Origin: Chiridota heheva | Taxonomy: Eukaryota > Echinodermata > Holothuroidea > Apodida > Chiridotidae | Assembly: GCA_020152595.1 (NCBI GenBank) | Contig: JAIGNY010003850.1 | Span: 1,620,001-1,684,000 of the forward strand | Length of the DNA stretch: 64,000 nucleotides | Direction: 5' to 3' | In this document: piece after piece, positions 26,315 to 60,279 of the stretch | Layout: each line of letters starts with the position of its first letter | Position numbering within the stretch: position 1 is the first letter of the stretch | Program-made: the position numbers and the translations under genes | Notes under the pieces: generated by a model | Databases searched by the model: none | Seen by the model: only the letters and a program-made list of their open reading frames with translations | What the model was told of the DNA's origin: nothing

Positions 26315-26447
26315 ATCTAGTTCAGAGAGCGTAGAAACTAGAGACATTACCACCCGGAAAGGAGAAGATCATCTAGAAAGTGTGAAGATTGTCGATCTGG
26401 ACCTTATCGCAACGCTGGGAATGGGTGGATTCGGACGAGTTGAGCTG
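26315..26447 (+). CDS. PRKG1: PKG exon B: linker and glycine-rich loop of the kinase domain
   Basis: A long T-run and ACAG acceptor precede the exon and a GTAAAC donor follows. One base finishes the split Arg codon, then 44 codons run to a phase 0 end. The first half is a Ser/Glu/Arg-rich linker (SSSESVETRDITTRK) that I cannot match to a known PKG linker. The second half reads VDLDLIATLGMGGFGRVEL, the first kinase strands with the nucleotide-binding loop GxGxxGxV at residues 61-68 of the window-encoded protein. In PKGs this loop positions the ATP phosphates. The linker normally joins the regulatory region to the catalytic domain in the same chain. Confidence 0.95.
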
Positions 26448-28380: not shown

Positions 28381-28717
28381 TGTGTTACAGTGCAACCGTG
28401 GTATTTTCTTTTGTAAATCCTTTGTTTTGAAAATGTCTTCAATTTTTGATTTAGCAATTCTGTCCAAAAGTTTAGGTCTTTACCATACCCTGAAGCAATT
28501 TCTAGCAGAAATAGACTTTCACATCCTTTTCAGTGACTAAGATATAGAATATAAATCTATAGAATTGAATACAGATTTTGAGCTGCCTGCCCAGTAACAC
28601 ATCACAAGTTTCGCATAGATTAAAAATCAATCAAACTTTGATCAGCCATAACTCAAAAACTAAAAGTCCTATTTACAGAATTTAAAAACTGATCTGCTCA
28701 GATTTAGAAGGATTAGT

Positions 28718-29649
28718 TCAGGGGTCAAGCAAGTTCATCTTATATGAAAAAGGGCTTCAAAAGAAACAAAATAATGAAGAAAGCATTCAAAAATCTTATT
28801 CCATTAAAGGATTAGTTCAGGGGTCAAGCAAGTTCATCTTATATGAAATAGGGCTTCAAAAGAAACAAAATGATGAAGAAAGCATTCAAAAATCTTATTC
28901 CATTAAAGGATTAGTTCAGGGGTCAAGTATGTCCATCTTATATGAAAGAGGACTTCAAAAGAAACAATATGGTAAAGAAAGCATCCAAAAATCTTATTCC
29001 ATTAAAGGATTAGTTTAGATGTCAAGCAAGTCCATTGTATATGAAAGAGGAACTCAAAAGAAACAAAATGGTGAAGAAAGCATTCAAAAATCTGACTCCG
29101 TTAAGGAGATATTGAAAGTTGGAAGTTCTGTCCTACCTGTGTAGAAATGACTGGTGTAGTAAGTCTACTATGTATGGAGTTTTAAACCATTTGGGTAGAA
29201 ACGACTGAAATCAGACTAGTTGTGATGTCACATATGCAGATTCCTCAAAGGTTTATACATATTCATGTATCATATTTTGTCCTGCGATTTTGTGGCTTAA
29301 AAACATTTGATATGACAGGAAGGTAGTAAAACATAATCTAGTAAGGGTAATTTTGATTTACCACCTGAAGAAAATTTGAGGAAATATAATTCAAATTGTA
29401 AACAAGTTGAATACATTTTATTTAGAATACATTAACAATTGATAAGAATGTGAGGATGAGGGTGTCAACCTTCTGCAGTAGATTTACCAATACCAGTCAT
29501 TTCTTTCTACACAGGTGAGATATAACTTCAAACTTAAATATCCTGTTGATGGAAGAAGATTTTTAAATGCTTTCTTCACTATTTTTTTTTTTTTTGAGTT
29601 TCTCTTTCACATAAGATCAACTTGCTGGACCACTGAACTAATCCTTTAA
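28718..29649. mobile_element. MITE-like element, copy 1, left arm multiplied
   Basis: The left arm, starting AAAGGATTAGTTCAGGGGTC and running through CATCTTATATGAAAGAGGAC to AAAATCTTATTCCATTAAAG, occurs four times in tandem at about 28718, 28805, 28904 and 29004. One inverted right arm ends the element (29540-29649, TGAACTAATCCTTTAA). The interior holds GACTGAAATCAGACTAGTTG and TTGTGGCTTAAAAAC and no reading frame. Confidence 0.85.
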
Positions 29650-31255: not shown

Positions 31256-31391
31256 GTCCAACTTACAAATACCAAGCAGACTTTTGCCTTGAAGTGCCTG
31301 AAAAAACACCACATCGTGGAGACGAGACAGCAGGAACATATCTATTCTGAGAAAAGATCATGTTTGAATCTAACAGTCCATTTATTGTCAA
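31256..31391 (+). CDS. PRKG1: PKG exon C: ATP-binding lysine and helix C, with a one-base frameshift
   Basis: The acceptor is CTCTCTGTAG and the donor is GTAAGT. Reading starts in phase 0 with VQLTNTKQTFALKCLKK; the Lys in FALK (residue 83) is the ATP-binding lysine. IVETRQQEHIYSEK follows, with the Glu of SEK (residue 102) as the helix C partner. After GAG AAA at 31349-31354 the frame slips by one base: PKG-like coding resumes in another frame as IMFESNSPFIVK. One base fewer than expected is present around the four A bases at 31352-31355. With that base counted, the exon joins exon D in the correct phase. Read literally, the message meets a stop in exon D. A homopolymer error in the assembly is the simplest explanation; a real null allele or a pseudogene are alternatives. 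All other exons are intact, which argues against a pseudogene. Confidence 0.93.
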
Positions 31392-34949: not shown

Positions 34950-36090
34950 TTTTAAAAGAGAAAGAAATGGGAAATTTTAAAGGAGTTGTGGTGCATGGCT
35001 TATGTTTATTTTTTTTGAAAGAGAAAGAAATGGGAAATTTTAAAGAGAAAGTTTTTTTTTTTGTTGACGTAACAATGCTTTTTTGACGATCTCAAACTTT
35101 AGTCAAAGGGAAAAACAAACAGTCAGTTATCATTGCAGTTAAAGAGAAAAAAAAACATTTTTTGTCATTTTTCAACAAATACTGGACAGAATTTATTTTT
35201 ATTCAAATATGATGCGTATTAGATAATAGTTTTCAACATATGTGAGTACTATTAATTTTTGCTGACTGGCTGAGGCGACACAAGTATTCACAAAAAGTAT
35301 CCCATTGACTTTAATGATAAAGTTTCTCCTCCAACATAGCAAAACCGTACTAAGCTCATACACAGTTACGTTGACTCTGACCTCAAGAATTAAAAGGAAT
35401 AATGAGGTGGAAGATGAAGGAAATATTTCTACAGCATACTTTAAATTATAAGGTTGCCACATTGGATAAAAAATATTAAATTTGAAAGTAAAAAATATAT
35501 CTTTTTCTTTGAAATAACAAAAGGCATTGAATGGTATTGATATTAAAGTTGATCAATTTTTCCCTAAATGATTGTAAATGAGTTATGAAATTTTCTGGAA
35601 GTTTTTGAATGGACATATTTTCCATGAGAAGATATTTTCCATTTAATCTTTGACATTACCAAATGTCATGCTTCTGTAATAATTTCTAGTGCATTTAGAA
35701 GATTTAAATAAAACAAAGTGTTTCGGATTTGTTCCAAACTTTCCAGTTTTTAAATATGACAGACAGATTTTGCGGTTTTCAAAAAATGCAAATTTTCATG
35801 TTTTCAAACAATTTTACTTGTAGTTTTCTCAAATTGAGGATTAAAATTTCTAGTTTACAAAAATTTCACTTTCCAGTTTTCAAGAAACAATAATTTGATT
35901 TCCAGTTTACAAAAAATGATTATTTAACTTTTCAGTTTTCAAAATATGATGGTTAGACTTCACAGTTTTCAAACCTATGTACAAAGCTTAACATGCAGCC
36001 ACATTTCAAGTATTCACATGTTTTGAAATATTGTGGAGAAGGTATTGGAATTGTATAGATATGTTGAGTCACAAGCAAGAACTTTATTAC
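34950..36090. other. Intron C sequence with CAGTTTTCAAA repeats
   Basis: AT-rich. At 35740-35975 short degenerate units of about 35 bp contain ACTTTCCAGTTTTCAAAA. Nothing else is supported. Confidence 0.45.
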
Positions 36091-36094
36091 GTTT

Positions 36095-37330
36095 TCAAAT
36101 GCATGGGGAAGGACAGTACCGACCGCTCCAACTACTGCCCCATTGCCCTTACTTGCTGTCTCTGTAAAATTATGGAAAGGATCATTAACCAGAGACTAAA
36201 CTGGTTCCTTGAGACCGGACAGAATCTTCTCCCCTTGCCAAAGCAGCTTCCAGAAACGTCCCAATACCCTGAACTAGTTAATCACGCTTGACACCGCTAT
36301 CCGGTTATCCTTTGCAAAAAAGGAACACCTCATTACCATCTTTTTGACCTTAAGAAAGCCTTCAACACTACATGGCCTCAGAGGCCACCCCCCCCCCCCT
36401 CATTTTTATTCAAAACTTCCTTTCATCCAGGTTCGTATTGGCCACACCCTCTCCAACCCTACCCCCAAGAAGAGGGCTTCTCCCAAGGCAGCATCTTTTC
36501 CCCTACTCTCTTCAACCTGAGCATTAACAACATTGCGGACAACCTTGGCCTCAACATCAAACGTGCCCTCTACGTGGATGACCTCACCATCTTCTACTCC
36601 TCCCTTAGCTTTTCTCTCATCAAAAATAGGCTCAACTTAGCCTCAACCGACTGCAAGATTGGTGCAACAATAGTGGTTTTAAATTCTCCAAAGACAAGGC
36701 AGTCTGCATGCACTTCTGTCATTTCAACTGCCTCCACCCCAACTGCAATCGCATCCCTAAAGTTGACCACACTTAAGCTCCTGGGTTAACCCTGGACCAT
36801 AAGCTCTCCTGCAAGCAACATATCACCAACCTAAAACAGAAATGCAACAGCTCCCTTAACCTTCTCCACCTCTTCAACACCACTTGGGGTGCGAACCCAC
36901 ACACTCTCCTCGAAATCTTCAGGCTCACCATTCATGCCAAGCTTGACTACGGCAATATTGTCTACTAGTGCCGCTCACAACTTTACCTCAACGACATCAA
37001 CACCATCTAAAATGAGGCCCTCAGGCTTTGCCTGGGTGTCTACCGGACCTCCCCCATCACCAGCCTTCACGTTGCAGCCAATGAACCCCCTTTCTGCTAA
37101 AGTGTAAAAAGCTTAACCTTTCCTATGCTTTTAGAGCCCTCACCAACACCCAAAATCCTGTATACAACCTCATTAAGTACCCCAATTTCTCCACCTTCTT
37201 TGATTGGACTAAAACTCTTGCCCATTTCTTCAGCTTACGCATCAAACCCGACCTCCACCATCTCGGCATCAACCCCGCCACTCTTGGCACCTTCTCCTGG
37301 CCCACTTTTGCTCCCTTCTATCCTAGGTAA
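36095..37330 (+). pseudogene. Degenerate Jockey/I-like LINE reverse transcriptase
   Basis: Across shifting frames: RSNYCPIALTCCLCKIMERI, then FFDLKKAFNTTWP, GSIFSPTLFNLSINNIADNL, the catalytic ALYVDDLTIFYSS, KFSKDKAVCMHFCHF, LLGLTLDHKLSCKQHITNLK, AKLDYGNIVY and EALRLCLGVYRTSPITSLHV. This order and wording belong to a non-LTR retrotransposon reverse transcriptase. The segment is much more GC-rich than its surroundings and carries several frameshifts and stops. It is unlike the LINE at 5648-7655, so at least two LINE clades are present. Confidence 0.9.
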
Positions 37331-44230: not shown

Positions 44231-44320
44231 ATTGTTCAAGACATTTAAGGACAGGAAGTATGTTTACATGCTGATGGAGGTGTGCTTAGGGGGAGAGTTG
44301 TGGACCATTCTTAGAGATAG
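44231..44320 (+). CDS. PRKG1: PKG exon D: gatekeeper and hinge region
   Basis: The acceptor is CTGTTTCAG and the donor is GTAAGT. One base completes the Lys begun in exon C, then 29 codons read [20 protein letters not shown] and onward, ending in [10 protein letters not shown]; the last two bases join exon E as Arg. The region covers kinase strands 4-5, the methionine gatekeeper (YMLME) and the hinge, including the acidic residue that contacts the ATP ribose. The GGELW motif is conserved across AGC kinases. Position 44340 onward, just after the donor, is a C-rich simple repeat. A complete MITE-like element ends about 165 bp upstream. Confidence 0.96.
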
Positions 44321-44337
44321 GTAAGTACAATTCTTCC

Positions 44338-44470
44338 AGCCCACCTCAAACCCACCCCACCTCAACCCCACCCCACCTCAAACCCACCTTAACCCCACCC
44401 CACCTCAACCCCACCCTAACCCCACCCCAGTTCAACCCCCCCCACTTTTTTCTCTCAACCCCAGTACAAC
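44338..44470. repeat. CCCACCTCAACCC simple repeat
   Basis: C/A-rich units such as ACCCCACCCCACCTCAACCC begin 17 bp after the exon D donor. Confidence 0.9.
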
Positions 44471-45723: not shown

Positions 45724-46733
45724 CATACTCACTAAGACAGTTTTTAAACTTTTATTGAGGGTTGCCAAAGTAAAATTAAAAACTCCAGATGGATATGAAA
45801 TGGATCTGTTGGTGGTATAATGATGAAAATATATAGATATTGTTTTAAGTCCATAACTGCTTTGGGTCATACTCACTAAAACAGTTTTTAAACTTTTATT
45901 GAGGGTTGCCAAAGTAAAATTAAAAACTCAGATGGATATGAAATGGATCTGTTGGTGGTATAATGATGAAAATATATAGATATTGTTTTAGGTCCATAAA
46001 TGCTTTGGGTCATACTCACTAAAACAGTTTTTAAACTTTTATTGAGGGTTGCCAAAGTAAAATTAAAAACTCAGATGGATATGAAATGGATCTGTTGGTG
46101 GTATAATGATGAAAATATATAGATATTGTTTTAGGTCCATAAATGCTTTGGGTCATACTCACTAAAACAGTTTTTAAACTTTTATTGAGGGTTGCCAAAG
46201 TAAAATTAAAAACTCCAGATGGATATGAAATGGATCTGTTGGTGGTATAATGATGAAAATATATAGATATTGTTTTAGGTCCATAAATGCTTTGGGTCAT
46301 ACTCACTAAAACAGTTTTTAAACTTTTATTGAGGGTTGCCAAAGTAAAATTAAAAACTCAGATGGATATGAAATGGATCTGTTGGTGGTATAATGATGAA
46401 AATATATAGATATTGTTTTAGGTCCATAAATGCTTTGGGTCATACTCACTAAAACAGTTTTTAAACTTTTATTGAGGGTTGCCAAAGTAAAATTAAAAAC
46501 TCCAGATGGATATGAAATGGATCTGTTGGTGGTATAATGATGAAAATATATAGATATTGTTTTAGGTCCATAAATGCTTTGGGTCATACTCACTAAAACA
46601 GTTTTAAACTTTTATTGAGGGTTGCCAAAGTAAAATTAAAAACTCAGATGGATATGAAATGGATCTGTTGGTGGTATAATGATGAAAATATATAGATATT
46701 GTTTTAAGTCCATAAATGCTTTGGGTAAAATTT
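45724..46733. repeat. 143/144-bp satellite, seven copies
   Basis: Units start with CATACTCACTAAAACAGTTT at 45724, 45868, 46011, 46154, 46298, 46441 and 46585. The unit contains GAGGGTTGCCAAAGTAAAAT and TGGATCTGTTGGTGGTATAA. The length difference is one base in AACTCCAG versus AACTCAG. Other differences are very rare, so the array is young or kept uniform. Confidence 0.97.
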
Positions 46734-48406: not shown

Positions 48407-48548
48407 GGGTCATTTTGATGACAACACGTCAAGATTTTGCACAGCGTGTGTGGTAGAAGCCTTTGTCTACCTTCACAATCGCGGGATTGTTTACAGGGAC
48501 CTTAAGCCTGAGAATCTTTTACTCGACAACCAAGGTTACGTTAAAATG
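48407..48548 (+). CDS. PRKG1: PKG exon E: catalytic loop (YRDLKPEN)
   Basis: The acceptor TTGTTACAG precedes the exon and the donor is GTGAGA. One base completes Arg, then 47 codons start [19 protein letters not shown] and run through [19 protein letters not shown] to GYVKM, ending in phase 0. The catalytic loop has YRD in place of the more common HRD, as is normal in AGC kinases; the Asp is residue 177 and acts as the catalytic base. RFC replaces the RFY of most PRKG1 proteins; PRKG2 also has FC here. The second half of this exon and the first part of its intron are repeated 211 bp downstream (48695-48758). Confidence 0.97.
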
Positions 48549-48856
48549 GTGAGATTAGAATAAGAATATCCATTTGTACAAGAGGTCCAGTTAATAGTTT
48601 AACGTCATTGGTAAAAATCAGATTGTTCATGAGGTGAAGATAACATCTCCCACCCCCTTCTCCTCCCCCCCCCCCCTCCCCTCTTATTCCCTAGGGTTGT
48701 TTACAGAGACCTTAAACCCGAGAATCTTTTACTCGACAACAAAGGTTATGCTAAAATGGTGAGATTAGAATAAGAATATCCGTTTGTTGAAGAAGCTCAG
48801 TTGATAGCTTTGGGTCATTGGTAAAACTCAGATTGTTCATGAGGTGAGGATAACAC
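48485..48856 (+). repeat. 211-bp tandem duplication covering half of exon E
   Basis: The segment 48485-48645 (end of exon E, donor and about 97 bp of intron) matches 48696-48856. C-rich tracts follow both copies (48648-48690 and 48858-48930). The first tract now sits upstream of the second copy and supplies a pyrimidine tract and CCCTAG acceptor. Divergence looks near 10% in both exon and intron parts. Confidence 0.93.
48695..48758 (+). CDS. Duplicated half of PKG exon E (possible alternative or pseudo-exon)
   Basis: A tandem copy of the last 21 codons of exon E, reading [20 protein letters not shown] and ending in Met. It follows a C-rich pyrimidine tract ending CCCTAG and keeps the GTGAGATTAG donor. 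The coding part differs from exon E at a few sites: five codon changes are silent or conservative (AGG/AGA, AAG/AAA, CCT/CCC, TAC/TAT, ATT/GTT) and two change residues (Gln to Lys, Val to Ala). Its phase matches exon D, so it could replace exon E in frame, but the product would lack 26 residues of helices D and E. Included after exon E it would shift frame and meet TAA within seven codons. Use in mRNA is unproven. Confidence 0.5.
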
Positions 48857-49489
48857 CCAGGCCACCCTTAATCCCCTCCCTTCCCCCTTCCCCCTTCCCC
48901 CCCCCCCCCCCTTCCCCCTTCCCCCTCCACTCCCGTTAAGAAAAAGTAGAAAGACATTGAGTTTTGTAGTATTCTTATCTTAAGAATATTCTTAATTCTG
49001 GCTGTCAGCCATCTTGTATATTATCTCTAGCTGGATGGATGTATCATAGTATTACAAAACTCTACAGTTTTTGAGTTCAATTTTTATCCAAATAGAATAT
49101 TCTAATGTAATCTGAAGCTATATTGTAGTCAGGAATAATTACTTAGTTTAAAGTTGAGTTTGTTTTCCAACACAGACATCAAAGGATGGAAACTTATATT
49201 CAAATATGGCAGAAATATCTCTTTCATTAAAAAGTAAATTAAATTACACCAGTTTGTTATATCTGTTTTAGACTTATAACCACATATGAATATCAGTCTG
49301 CTCAGTATATTACTTTTTATCATGTTAAGAAGTTACTAAATCGATGTGTATGGATAGAATTTTGACAGTTAAAATCTCTAAAGTACTCACTTTGGATCTG
49401 TTTTATGTAATATGGATCGTTATGCAACATTAATACAGCATTTATGGATGAATGTCTTTTGGCAGCAAAAAAGAATCATGAAAGGGCTC

Positions 49490-50865
49490 AAGGATTATTA
49501 GTTCAGTTGTCAAGCAAACTTATCTTATATGAAAGAAGACACAAAATGGTGAAGGAAGCATTCAAAAATTGTATTCCGTAAAGGAGTTATTGAAGTTTAA
49601 AGCTCTGATTTATGTTGAAAGTTAAGTCTTATCTGTGTAGAAATGACTGGTGTAGTAAGTCTACTATGGAAAGTTGGCATCTCCATTCTTACATTCTTAA
49701 CAATTTTTAGTGTATTTTGAAGATAATTTTACTTTTTAGTTTTTGAATTTGTTTTCCTCTTAACTTTCTTTAGGTGGTAAATTATAATTAACCTGACTAG
49801 ATTCTGTGTTACTCCTTTCCTGACATATCCAATGGTTTTTATTCCACAAAATCGCAGGACAATATATAGAATACATTACTTTGAGGAATCTGAGGCTATG
49901 ACATCACAACTAACTAGTCTAATTCAGTCGTTTCTACAGAAATGATACCAAACTTTAAACCTAGATATCTCCTTAATGGAATAAGATATTTGAATGCTTT
50001 CTCCATTTTGAAGTCCTCTTTCATATACGATGGACATGCTTGACCCCTGAAGTAATCCTTTAACGGAGGCAGATTTTTTAATGCTTTCTTCACCATTTGT
50101 TTCTTTTAAAGTCCTCTTTCATATAAGATGGACTTGCTTGACCCCCGAACTAATCCTTTAATGGAGTTAGAATTTTGAAAGCTTTCTTCACCATTTTGTT
50201 TCTTTTGAAGTCCTCGTTCATATAAGATGGACTTGCTTGACCACTGAACTAATCCTTTAATGCAGTCAAAATTTGGAATGCTTTCTTCACCATTTTGTTT
50301 CTTTTGAAGTCCTCTTTCATATAAGATGGACATGCTTGACCCTTGAACTAATCCTTTAACGGAGTCAAATTTTTTAATGCTTTCTTCACCATTTTGTTTC
50401 TTTTGAAGTCCTCTTTCATATATAATGGACTTGCTTGACCCCTGAACTAATCCTTTAATGGAGTCAGAATTTTAAATGCTTTTTTCACTATTTTCTTTCT
50501 TTTGAAGTCCTCTTTCATATGAGATGGACTTGCCTGACCCCTGAACTAATCCTTTAATGGAGTCAGAATTTTGAATGCTTTCTTCACCATTTTGTTTCTT
50601 TTGAAGACATCTTTCATATACAATGGACATGCCTGATCCCTGAACTAATTCTTTAACAAAGTCAAGATTTTTTGAATGCTTTTTGTCACCATTTTGTTTA
50701 TTTTGAAGTCCTCTTTCATGTACGATGGACTTGCTTGACTGCTGAGCTAATCCTTCAACAGAACAAGATATTTGAATGCTTTTGCACCACCATTTTGTTT
50801 CTTTTAAAGTCCTCTTTCATGTACAATTGACTTGCTTGACCCCTGACCTAATTCTTTAAATGGTT
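49490..50865. mobile_element. MITE-like element, copy 4, right arm multiplied
   Basis: One left arm (49490-49600, ATTAGTTCAGTTGTCAAGC), an interior with TGGTGTAGTAAGTCTACTAT and GACATCACAACTAACTAGTC, then about nine inverted right arms in tandem from about 49965 to 50860, each about 105 bp and ending in a GAACTAATCCTTTAA variant. The block ends about 150 bp before exon F. Confidence 0.85.
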
Positions 50866-51014: not shown

Positions 51015-51179
<165 letters not shown>

Positions 51180-59029: not shown

Positions 59030-59096
59030 ATGGTTCCAGGGATTCGACTGGGATGGTCTTAAAGCTCAGAATATAGTGCCTCCACTCAAGCCGTCG
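59030..59096 (+). CDS. PRKG1: PKG exon H: start of the AGC C-terminal tail
   Basis: A short exon between a TTGTTGTAG acceptor and a GTGAGT donor. One base completes the Lys from exon G, then 22 codons read WFQGFDWDGLKAQNIVPPLK and PS, ending in phase 0. The HKWF..FDW..L pattern marks the last kinase helix and entry into the AGC-specific tail that wraps the N-lobe. Confidence 0.96.
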
Positions 59097-59554: not shown

Positions 59555-60110
59555 GCAGAGCTAGGGTTCAAGCAAGTTCATTTTATATGAAAGAGGACTT
59601 CAAAAGAACAACGTAGTGAAAAAAGCATTCAAAAAACTTATTCCGTTGAAGGATTAGTTAAGGGGTCAAGCAAGTCTTATCTTATATGGAGAGGAACTCA
59701 AAAGAAACAAAATGGTGAAGAATGAAATTGAAAATCTTATTCCATTCAAGGATTAGTTTAGGGAAATAAGCAAGTCTATCTTTTATGAAATAGGAACTCA
59801 AAAGAAACAAATTGGTGAAGAAAGCATTCAAAAATCTTATTTCATTAAACGATTAGTTTAGTGGTCAAGCATGTTTATCTTAAATGAAAGAGAACTTCAA
59901 AAGGAACAAAATGGTGAAGAAAACATTTAAAATTTGTATTCTGTTAAAGAATTAGTTAAGGGGTCAAGCAAGTCTATCTTATATGAAGGAGGAACTATTC
60001 CTTTAACAGAATCAGATTTTTGAACGCTTTCTTCCATTTTTTTCTATTAAAGTCTTTTTATATAAGATGGACATGCTTGACCACTGAACTAATTCCTTTT
60101 ATGCATACAA
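59555..60110. mobile_element. MITE-like element, copy 5, left arm multiplied
   Basis: Left arms at about 59560, 59651, 59747, 59848 and 59944 (variants of AAGGATTAGTTAAGGGGTCA), then directly one inverted right arm ending TTGACCACTGAACTAATTCC near 60096. The interior is missing. It ends about 75 bp before exon I. Confidence 0.85.
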
Positions 60111-60183: not shown

Positions 60184-60279
60184 GTCAAATGTCCATCGGA
60201 CTACAGCAATTTTGACAGCTACCCAAAAGCCACGGACATACCGCCAGACGAGCTATCAGGTTGGGATGAGTACTTCTAA
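60184..60279 (+). CDS. PRKG1: PKG exon I: C-terminal tail and stop codon
   Basis: The acceptor is TTCATTTATAG. In phase 0 the exon reads VKCPSDYSNFDSYPKATDIP and ends PPDELSGWDEYF followed by TAA at 60277-60279. NFDSYP is the AGC tail motif whose Phe packs on the N-lobe. The ending PPDELSGWD is nearer to PRKG2 than to vertebrate PRKG1, which usually has a shorter acidic ending. With all nine exons joined and the missing base of exon C counted, the frame reaches this stop with no other break, which supports the exon set. A MITE arm array ends about 75 bp upstream of the acceptor. Confidence 0.97.
   Translation, partial: VKCPSDYSNFDSYPKATDIPPDELSGWDEYF

Follow-up and report, generated by a model that had tools for sequence, protein, structure and literature searches.

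The window analysed here, a 64-kb stretch of the forward strand of Chiridota heheva DNA, includes the kinase-coding end of an animal-type cGMP-dependent protein kinase (PKG) gene. A tandem duplication within this gene has copied part of one kinase exon, exon E, and the copy, E', is flanked by sequences that resemble splice sites. The exons and the parts of the duplication lie as follows.

26315..26447, forward strand: exon A, with the glycine-rich loop LGMGGFGRVEL; matches an exon of the paralogue
31256..31391, forward strand: exon B, 136 nt (paralogue 137 nt); frame broken after YSEK
44231..44320, forward strand: exon D; ends in ILRD plus 2 nt
48407..48548, forward strand: exon E, 142 nt; helix D/E region and catalytic loop YRDLKPEN; PKG1 chain 6bdl at 2e-19; paralogue exon also 142 nt
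48484..48693, forward strand: upstream unit of the duplication; last 65 nt of exon E, donor, intron start and C-rich tract
48650..48694, forward strand: pyrimidine tract and CCCTAG acceptor of E'; C-rich, branch-point-like TAAC from 48641, score 7.6
48694..48939, forward strand: downstream unit of the duplication; ends at an uncertain point of the second C tract
48695..48758, forward strand: E', exon-like copy of 64 nt; reading on from E meets a TAA at 48713-48715
48759..48764, forward strand: donor of E'; nine-base site identical to the donor of E
51015..51178, forward strand: exon F; DFG and activation segment
54807..54992, forward strand: exon G
59030..59096, forward strand: exon H
60184..60279, forward strand: exon I; C-terminus and stop

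The 47 amino acids of exon E by themselves match PKG1 chain 6bdl. When joined, exons D-I match the same chain with E=4e-136 and 455.6 bits, while the best PKA chain reaches 231.7 bits. The kinase domain, as predicted from these matches, is of the AGC type and nearer to PKG than to PKA. A second PKG gene (G000:C1726:317026-364851) has matching introns and an exon E of 68% identity, and reaches 424.6 bits with the PKG1 chain over D-H; its exons B and D-I, as translated, carry no stop. Ten bounded exons, which make up part of each gene, are colinear between the two, and exons D to H are equal in length. By eye, upstream stretches common to both genes (at -39644 and -15610 relative to the window) resemble cNMP-binding segments, the one at -39644 being an eleventh match that was left unbounded. 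Both the window gene and the paralogue have PKG1 as their best solved chain, with no PKG2 kinase chain among the matches listed. Our assignment would be to PKG as such, with types I and II not told apart for either gene.

The duplication appears as a direct repeat, 48484-48676 and 48694-48886, with 82% identity over 193 nt when part of the C tract is counted. Without the C tract the units are ~88% identical: of 162 nt, 20 differ, and 14 of these changes are transitions. On the left the duplication breaks within exon E, and on the right within the C-rich tract. The first-pass annotation of this DNA had described a 211-bp tandem duplication carrying the end of exon E, its donor and a C-rich tract; the copied parts are indeed these, while the spacing is 210 in the coding part and 211 in the C tract only. 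A blastn search with the ten exons of each PKG gene covered the 143.6 kb around the window gene and the 110 kb around the paralogue at E values of at most 0.01; E' was the sole second copy of an exon within its gene (65 nt, 89%, E=2e-19). One 16-nt match aside, no other exon copies were found in the two regions at this threshold, and therefore the repeat is not a product of chance. Under the same settings the 110-kb region of the paralogue showed no copy of exon E, and a DNA search of the genome (1.1-Gb assembly, 3,744 contigs) gave one matching place only. We conclude that a partial tandem copy of a kinase exon with usable-looking splice signals is a real observation, and it is confirmed.

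Both E and E' begin with one codon-completing base and end on a codon boundary, and YRDLKPEN is intact in each. The two donors are the same nine bases, ATG/GTGAGA, and no AG intervenes between the TAAC at 48641 and the E' acceptor CCCTAG/G. These observations bear out the earlier proposal of a CCCTAG acceptor behind a C-rich tract with a donor in the copy, in phase with exon D (D-E'-F is in frame) and with the catalytic-loop motif retained. The matrix used to score splice sites was built from inferred exon boundaries in the two PKG genes, with 20 acceptors and 18 donors. With the scored site left out of the matrix, the acceptors of E', E and F score 7.6, 7.3 and 4.9 within a range of -2.3 to 17.2 for the 20 acceptors; with the site retained, E and F score 11.4 and 9.3. 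The E' acceptor is thus not weaker than E's own on leave-one-out scores. It scores above seven or eight of the 20 acceptors of the two genes, and its donor above seven of the 18 real donors. Folding of the RNA of 48549-48780 showed no special structure (z +1.82), so that the E' acceptor is not obviously hidden. At gathering scores, Rfam had no match in the 64-kb window. Exons D and E each have a C-rich simple tract after the donor (44336-44445 and 48640-48939, respectively).

As an adjacent copy with both splice sites, E' qualifies as a tandemly duplicated exon, although the copy is partial only. Such exons occur in ~10% of animal genes according to a 2002 survey cited in PMC9013439, and excerpts of that article also indicate that unannotated exon copies exist beyond annotated exons; tandemly duplicated exons, mutually exclusive ones included, are likewise a subject of PMC9741552. 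E' resembles the exons treated in these excerpts in being an adjacent, intronic and homologous copy, phase-compatible and with splice signals. It differs from tandemly duplicated exons in that only the last 64 of 142 nt are present, the acceptor was not copied along, and a swap would lose a core helix. We considered mutually exclusive exons and rejected them: E' has 64 nt against 142 in E, 26 residues are lost, and the segments are not equivalent. Pseudoexon was also rejected as a name for E', since the definition in PMC8819188 excludes copies of canonical exons.

We compared the translated products of several splice routes. The route D-E'-F-G-H-I is open to the natural stop with 26 residues fewer, and it still scores 147.8 bits with Pkinase, where the normal form reaches 190.7. 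When E and E' are both used, translation stops within E' itself after GCLQRP (18 nt in, at 48713-48715 by counting); the first-pass annotation had predicted an early stop without placing it inside E'. Joining the E acceptor to the E' donor gives a product that ends in VRLE and then stops, and D joined straight to F also runs into a stop. Among these routes only D-E-F therefore yields a full kinase. The residues absent from D-E' match PKA 136-161 without gaps, which we take to be the region with helix alphaE, part of the C-lobe core. Since helix E is among the 26 lost residues, an active D-E' kinase is implausible. The earlier suggestion of a kinase made with E' in place of E was thus right about the frame and the 26 residues, but an active enzyme is unlikely.

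How unusual is such a unit in this region? Across the 64 kb, acceptor-donor pairs that score at least as well as those of E' number 17 on the forward strand and five on the reverse strand. The 17 comprise six of the seven bounded internal exons, E' and ten others, in which one of the two sites may be that of a real exon. Tandem-array loci with periods of 60-500 are also frequent, with 25 in the 143.6 kb around the window gene and 20 in the 110 kb around the paralogue. The 25 loci from TRF do not include the exon E duplication, and none of them touches a bounded exon. When the duplication was added as a 26th locus and all 26 were placed at random, a placement that ignores selection against exon hits, the mean was 1.06 exon touches and the probability of at least one was 0.67. 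With about one touch expected, a single exon-touching duplication is as foreseen for the region. A 99-bp repeat family forms short tandem arrays at 28708-29104, 50006-50859 and 59563-59996 (one of them reversed), with relatives around both PKG genes. The intron upstream of exon E contains a recent-looking array of seven 143-bp units at 98% (45724-46726), and reading frames at 35992-36800 resemble, by eye, a decayed non-LTR reverse transcriptase (NYCPIALT..., YVDDL).

To what extent E' is under constraint can be judged from its differences with E. Exon and intron parts of the unit are equally diverged, as had been noted before (7/63 versus 13/97, Fisher P=0.81). Counting silent against replacement changes, a check that the first-pass annotation had proposed, gave 4 silent and 3 replacement differences (I/V, Q/K, V/A) in 21 codons, with pS 0.32, pN 0.059 and a Fisher value of ~0.022. 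This silent excess hints at constraint, although constraint on E alone would account for part of the excess. We simulated the likelihood of 4 silent plus 3 replacement changes with the observed transition bias, and obtained, on these small counts, 0.032 if constraint acts on E only, 0.0030 if it acts on both and 0.014 if it acts on neither. The model in which E is constrained and E' is free fits ten times better than the one in which both are constrained. In simulation a neutral copy keeps its frame, AG and GT with P=0.64, so the intactness of E' tells little. At codon 20, E' has alanine as in PKG1 chain 6bdl, while E has valine; E' is therefore not simply the decayed copy. Among the alternatives previously offered for E', the neutral one is thus favoured by the numbers, and a replacement-isoform kinase is unlikely.

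The state of the gene also matters for what E' could do. Exon B is one base short of its counterpart in the paralogue, its halves are in different frames, and the break sits at 31352-31357 in a run of four A; the frame through the kinase exons is accordingly interrupted at this point of the assembly, a feature on which the first-pass annotation of E' is silent. The break may be an assembly error, as errors are common in such runs. In 287 kinase codons, which include the last 30 codons of A and exclude I, there are 0 stops against an unconstrained expectation of 1.9 (P(0)=0.14), a weak point taken alone. Had selection been absent after the duplication, these codons should have gathered 43 residue changes. 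Exon F differs from the paralogue in two of 54 residues, with 8.1 changes expected without selection. The pS/pN table between the two genes sets aside exons A (unequal in length), x1, x4 and I, and treats B as two pieces. Selection seems to have acted on the PKG gene through most of the period after the copy's origin.

The most likely identity of E' is an ordinary partial tandem exon duplication, neutral and mostly skipped. As a full account, we consider it probable that E' is a non-adaptive relic of such an event. A tandem duplication of ~210 bp, with its left break inside exon E of the PKG gene, would have brought along the exon tail and the donor, while the C-rich intron tract ahead and the AG at the junction happen to resemble an acceptor. 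That E' is mostly skipped is suggested by this apparent selection on the gene over most of the copy's lifetime; E' would then have been skipped or tolerated so far. It would drift without visible constraint, at most yielding some stop-bearing mRNA bound for decay. An adaptive role for E' would not be needed. Speaking against such a relic, the splice sites themselves give no reason for skipping, as the acceptor is about as good as E's and above F's and the donor is the same.

A regulated poison exon is a rather unlikely alternative. In this case the stop that follows E would send the mRNA to nonsense-mediated decay and tune PKG dose, possibly via poly-C-binding proteins. The E-E' junction has the layout of a poison exon, for the TAA within E' lies upstream of the E'/F, F/G, G/H and H/I junctions, and the leave-one-out acceptor and the donor are of the quality of real sites. 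E' is like poison (NMD-triggering) cassette exons in that its inclusion would add an in-frame stop. The poly-C-binding proteins are of interest here: excerpts of PMC4797308 and PMC5829739 indicate that they increase the inclusion of mammalian exons after C-rich tracts, and CDK2 exon 5 is described in the latter as an exon of this kind. E' shares with these exons a C-rich tract right before the acceptor, and CDK2 is also a kinase gene; those exons are mammalian and experimentally demonstrated, whereas E' is a sequence pattern. C-rich tracts are usable with these proteins, but a minigene result in PMC4797308 points to a lower strength than that of U-rich tracts. Also against a poison exon, E' carries no clear sign of constraint, and ten other site pairs in the window are equally good.

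It is unlikely that the PKG gene is dying, with a real break in exon B, a further loss through E' and the second PKG gene carrying on, a course of events that would be compatible with E' as a relic. The one-base deficit of exon B and its out-of-frame halves would fit. However, this break is the sole lesion in the parts of the kinase exons examined, and it sits in a run of four A, probably typical of assembly errors; the 287 codons hold no stop, D-I is open to the end, and the joined D-I product still scores 455.6 bits with PKG1 chain 6bdl. We give still less weight to a stronger form of the poison exon, in which E' would be self-made, holding the catalytic-loop motif yet terminating the protein immediately when read after E, with the C-rich tract letting poly-C-binding proteins set PKG dose.

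Very improbable is a shortened PKG, 26 residues smaller and perhaps dominant-negative, formed when E' replaces E. Its open frame, its Pkinase score and an acceptor no weaker than E's would permit it, but the lost residues presumably include helix E and E' is without visible constraint at the protein level. That the two units are an assembly artefact is more improbable still: an exon B break that is itself an error would mean that small errors may occur in this assembly, but the units are 12% diverged and the genome search found one matching place. From this divergence the duplication is probably not a misassembled allele either. We give next to no credence to a newly made intron, spliced out to restore the protein with E' as the exon end, for which E would have to supply a donor close to 48484. 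New introns can arise from duplications over exon-intron boundaries, as excerpts on potato in PMC4974935 indicate, and E' is similar in that a duplication over such a boundary makes new splice signals. Ten GT are listed in E; just two of them, at 48428 and 48446, fit the phase, and both would drop much of the helix E region. Without a donor at the matching place in E, a new intron does not restore the original coding sequence, unlike the potato case.

A PKG case of such a partial exon copy was not found in the literature among the matches listed, and the one match listed for partial exon duplication with a splice site was an unrelated clinical paper. E' would offer a clean snapshot of how a duplication that breaks inside an exon instantly makes an exon-like unit, with the donor copied and the acceptor supplied by the intron. 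Splice signals alone would be insufficient to call such units exons, as background duplication and chance sites may account for them near the PKG gene.
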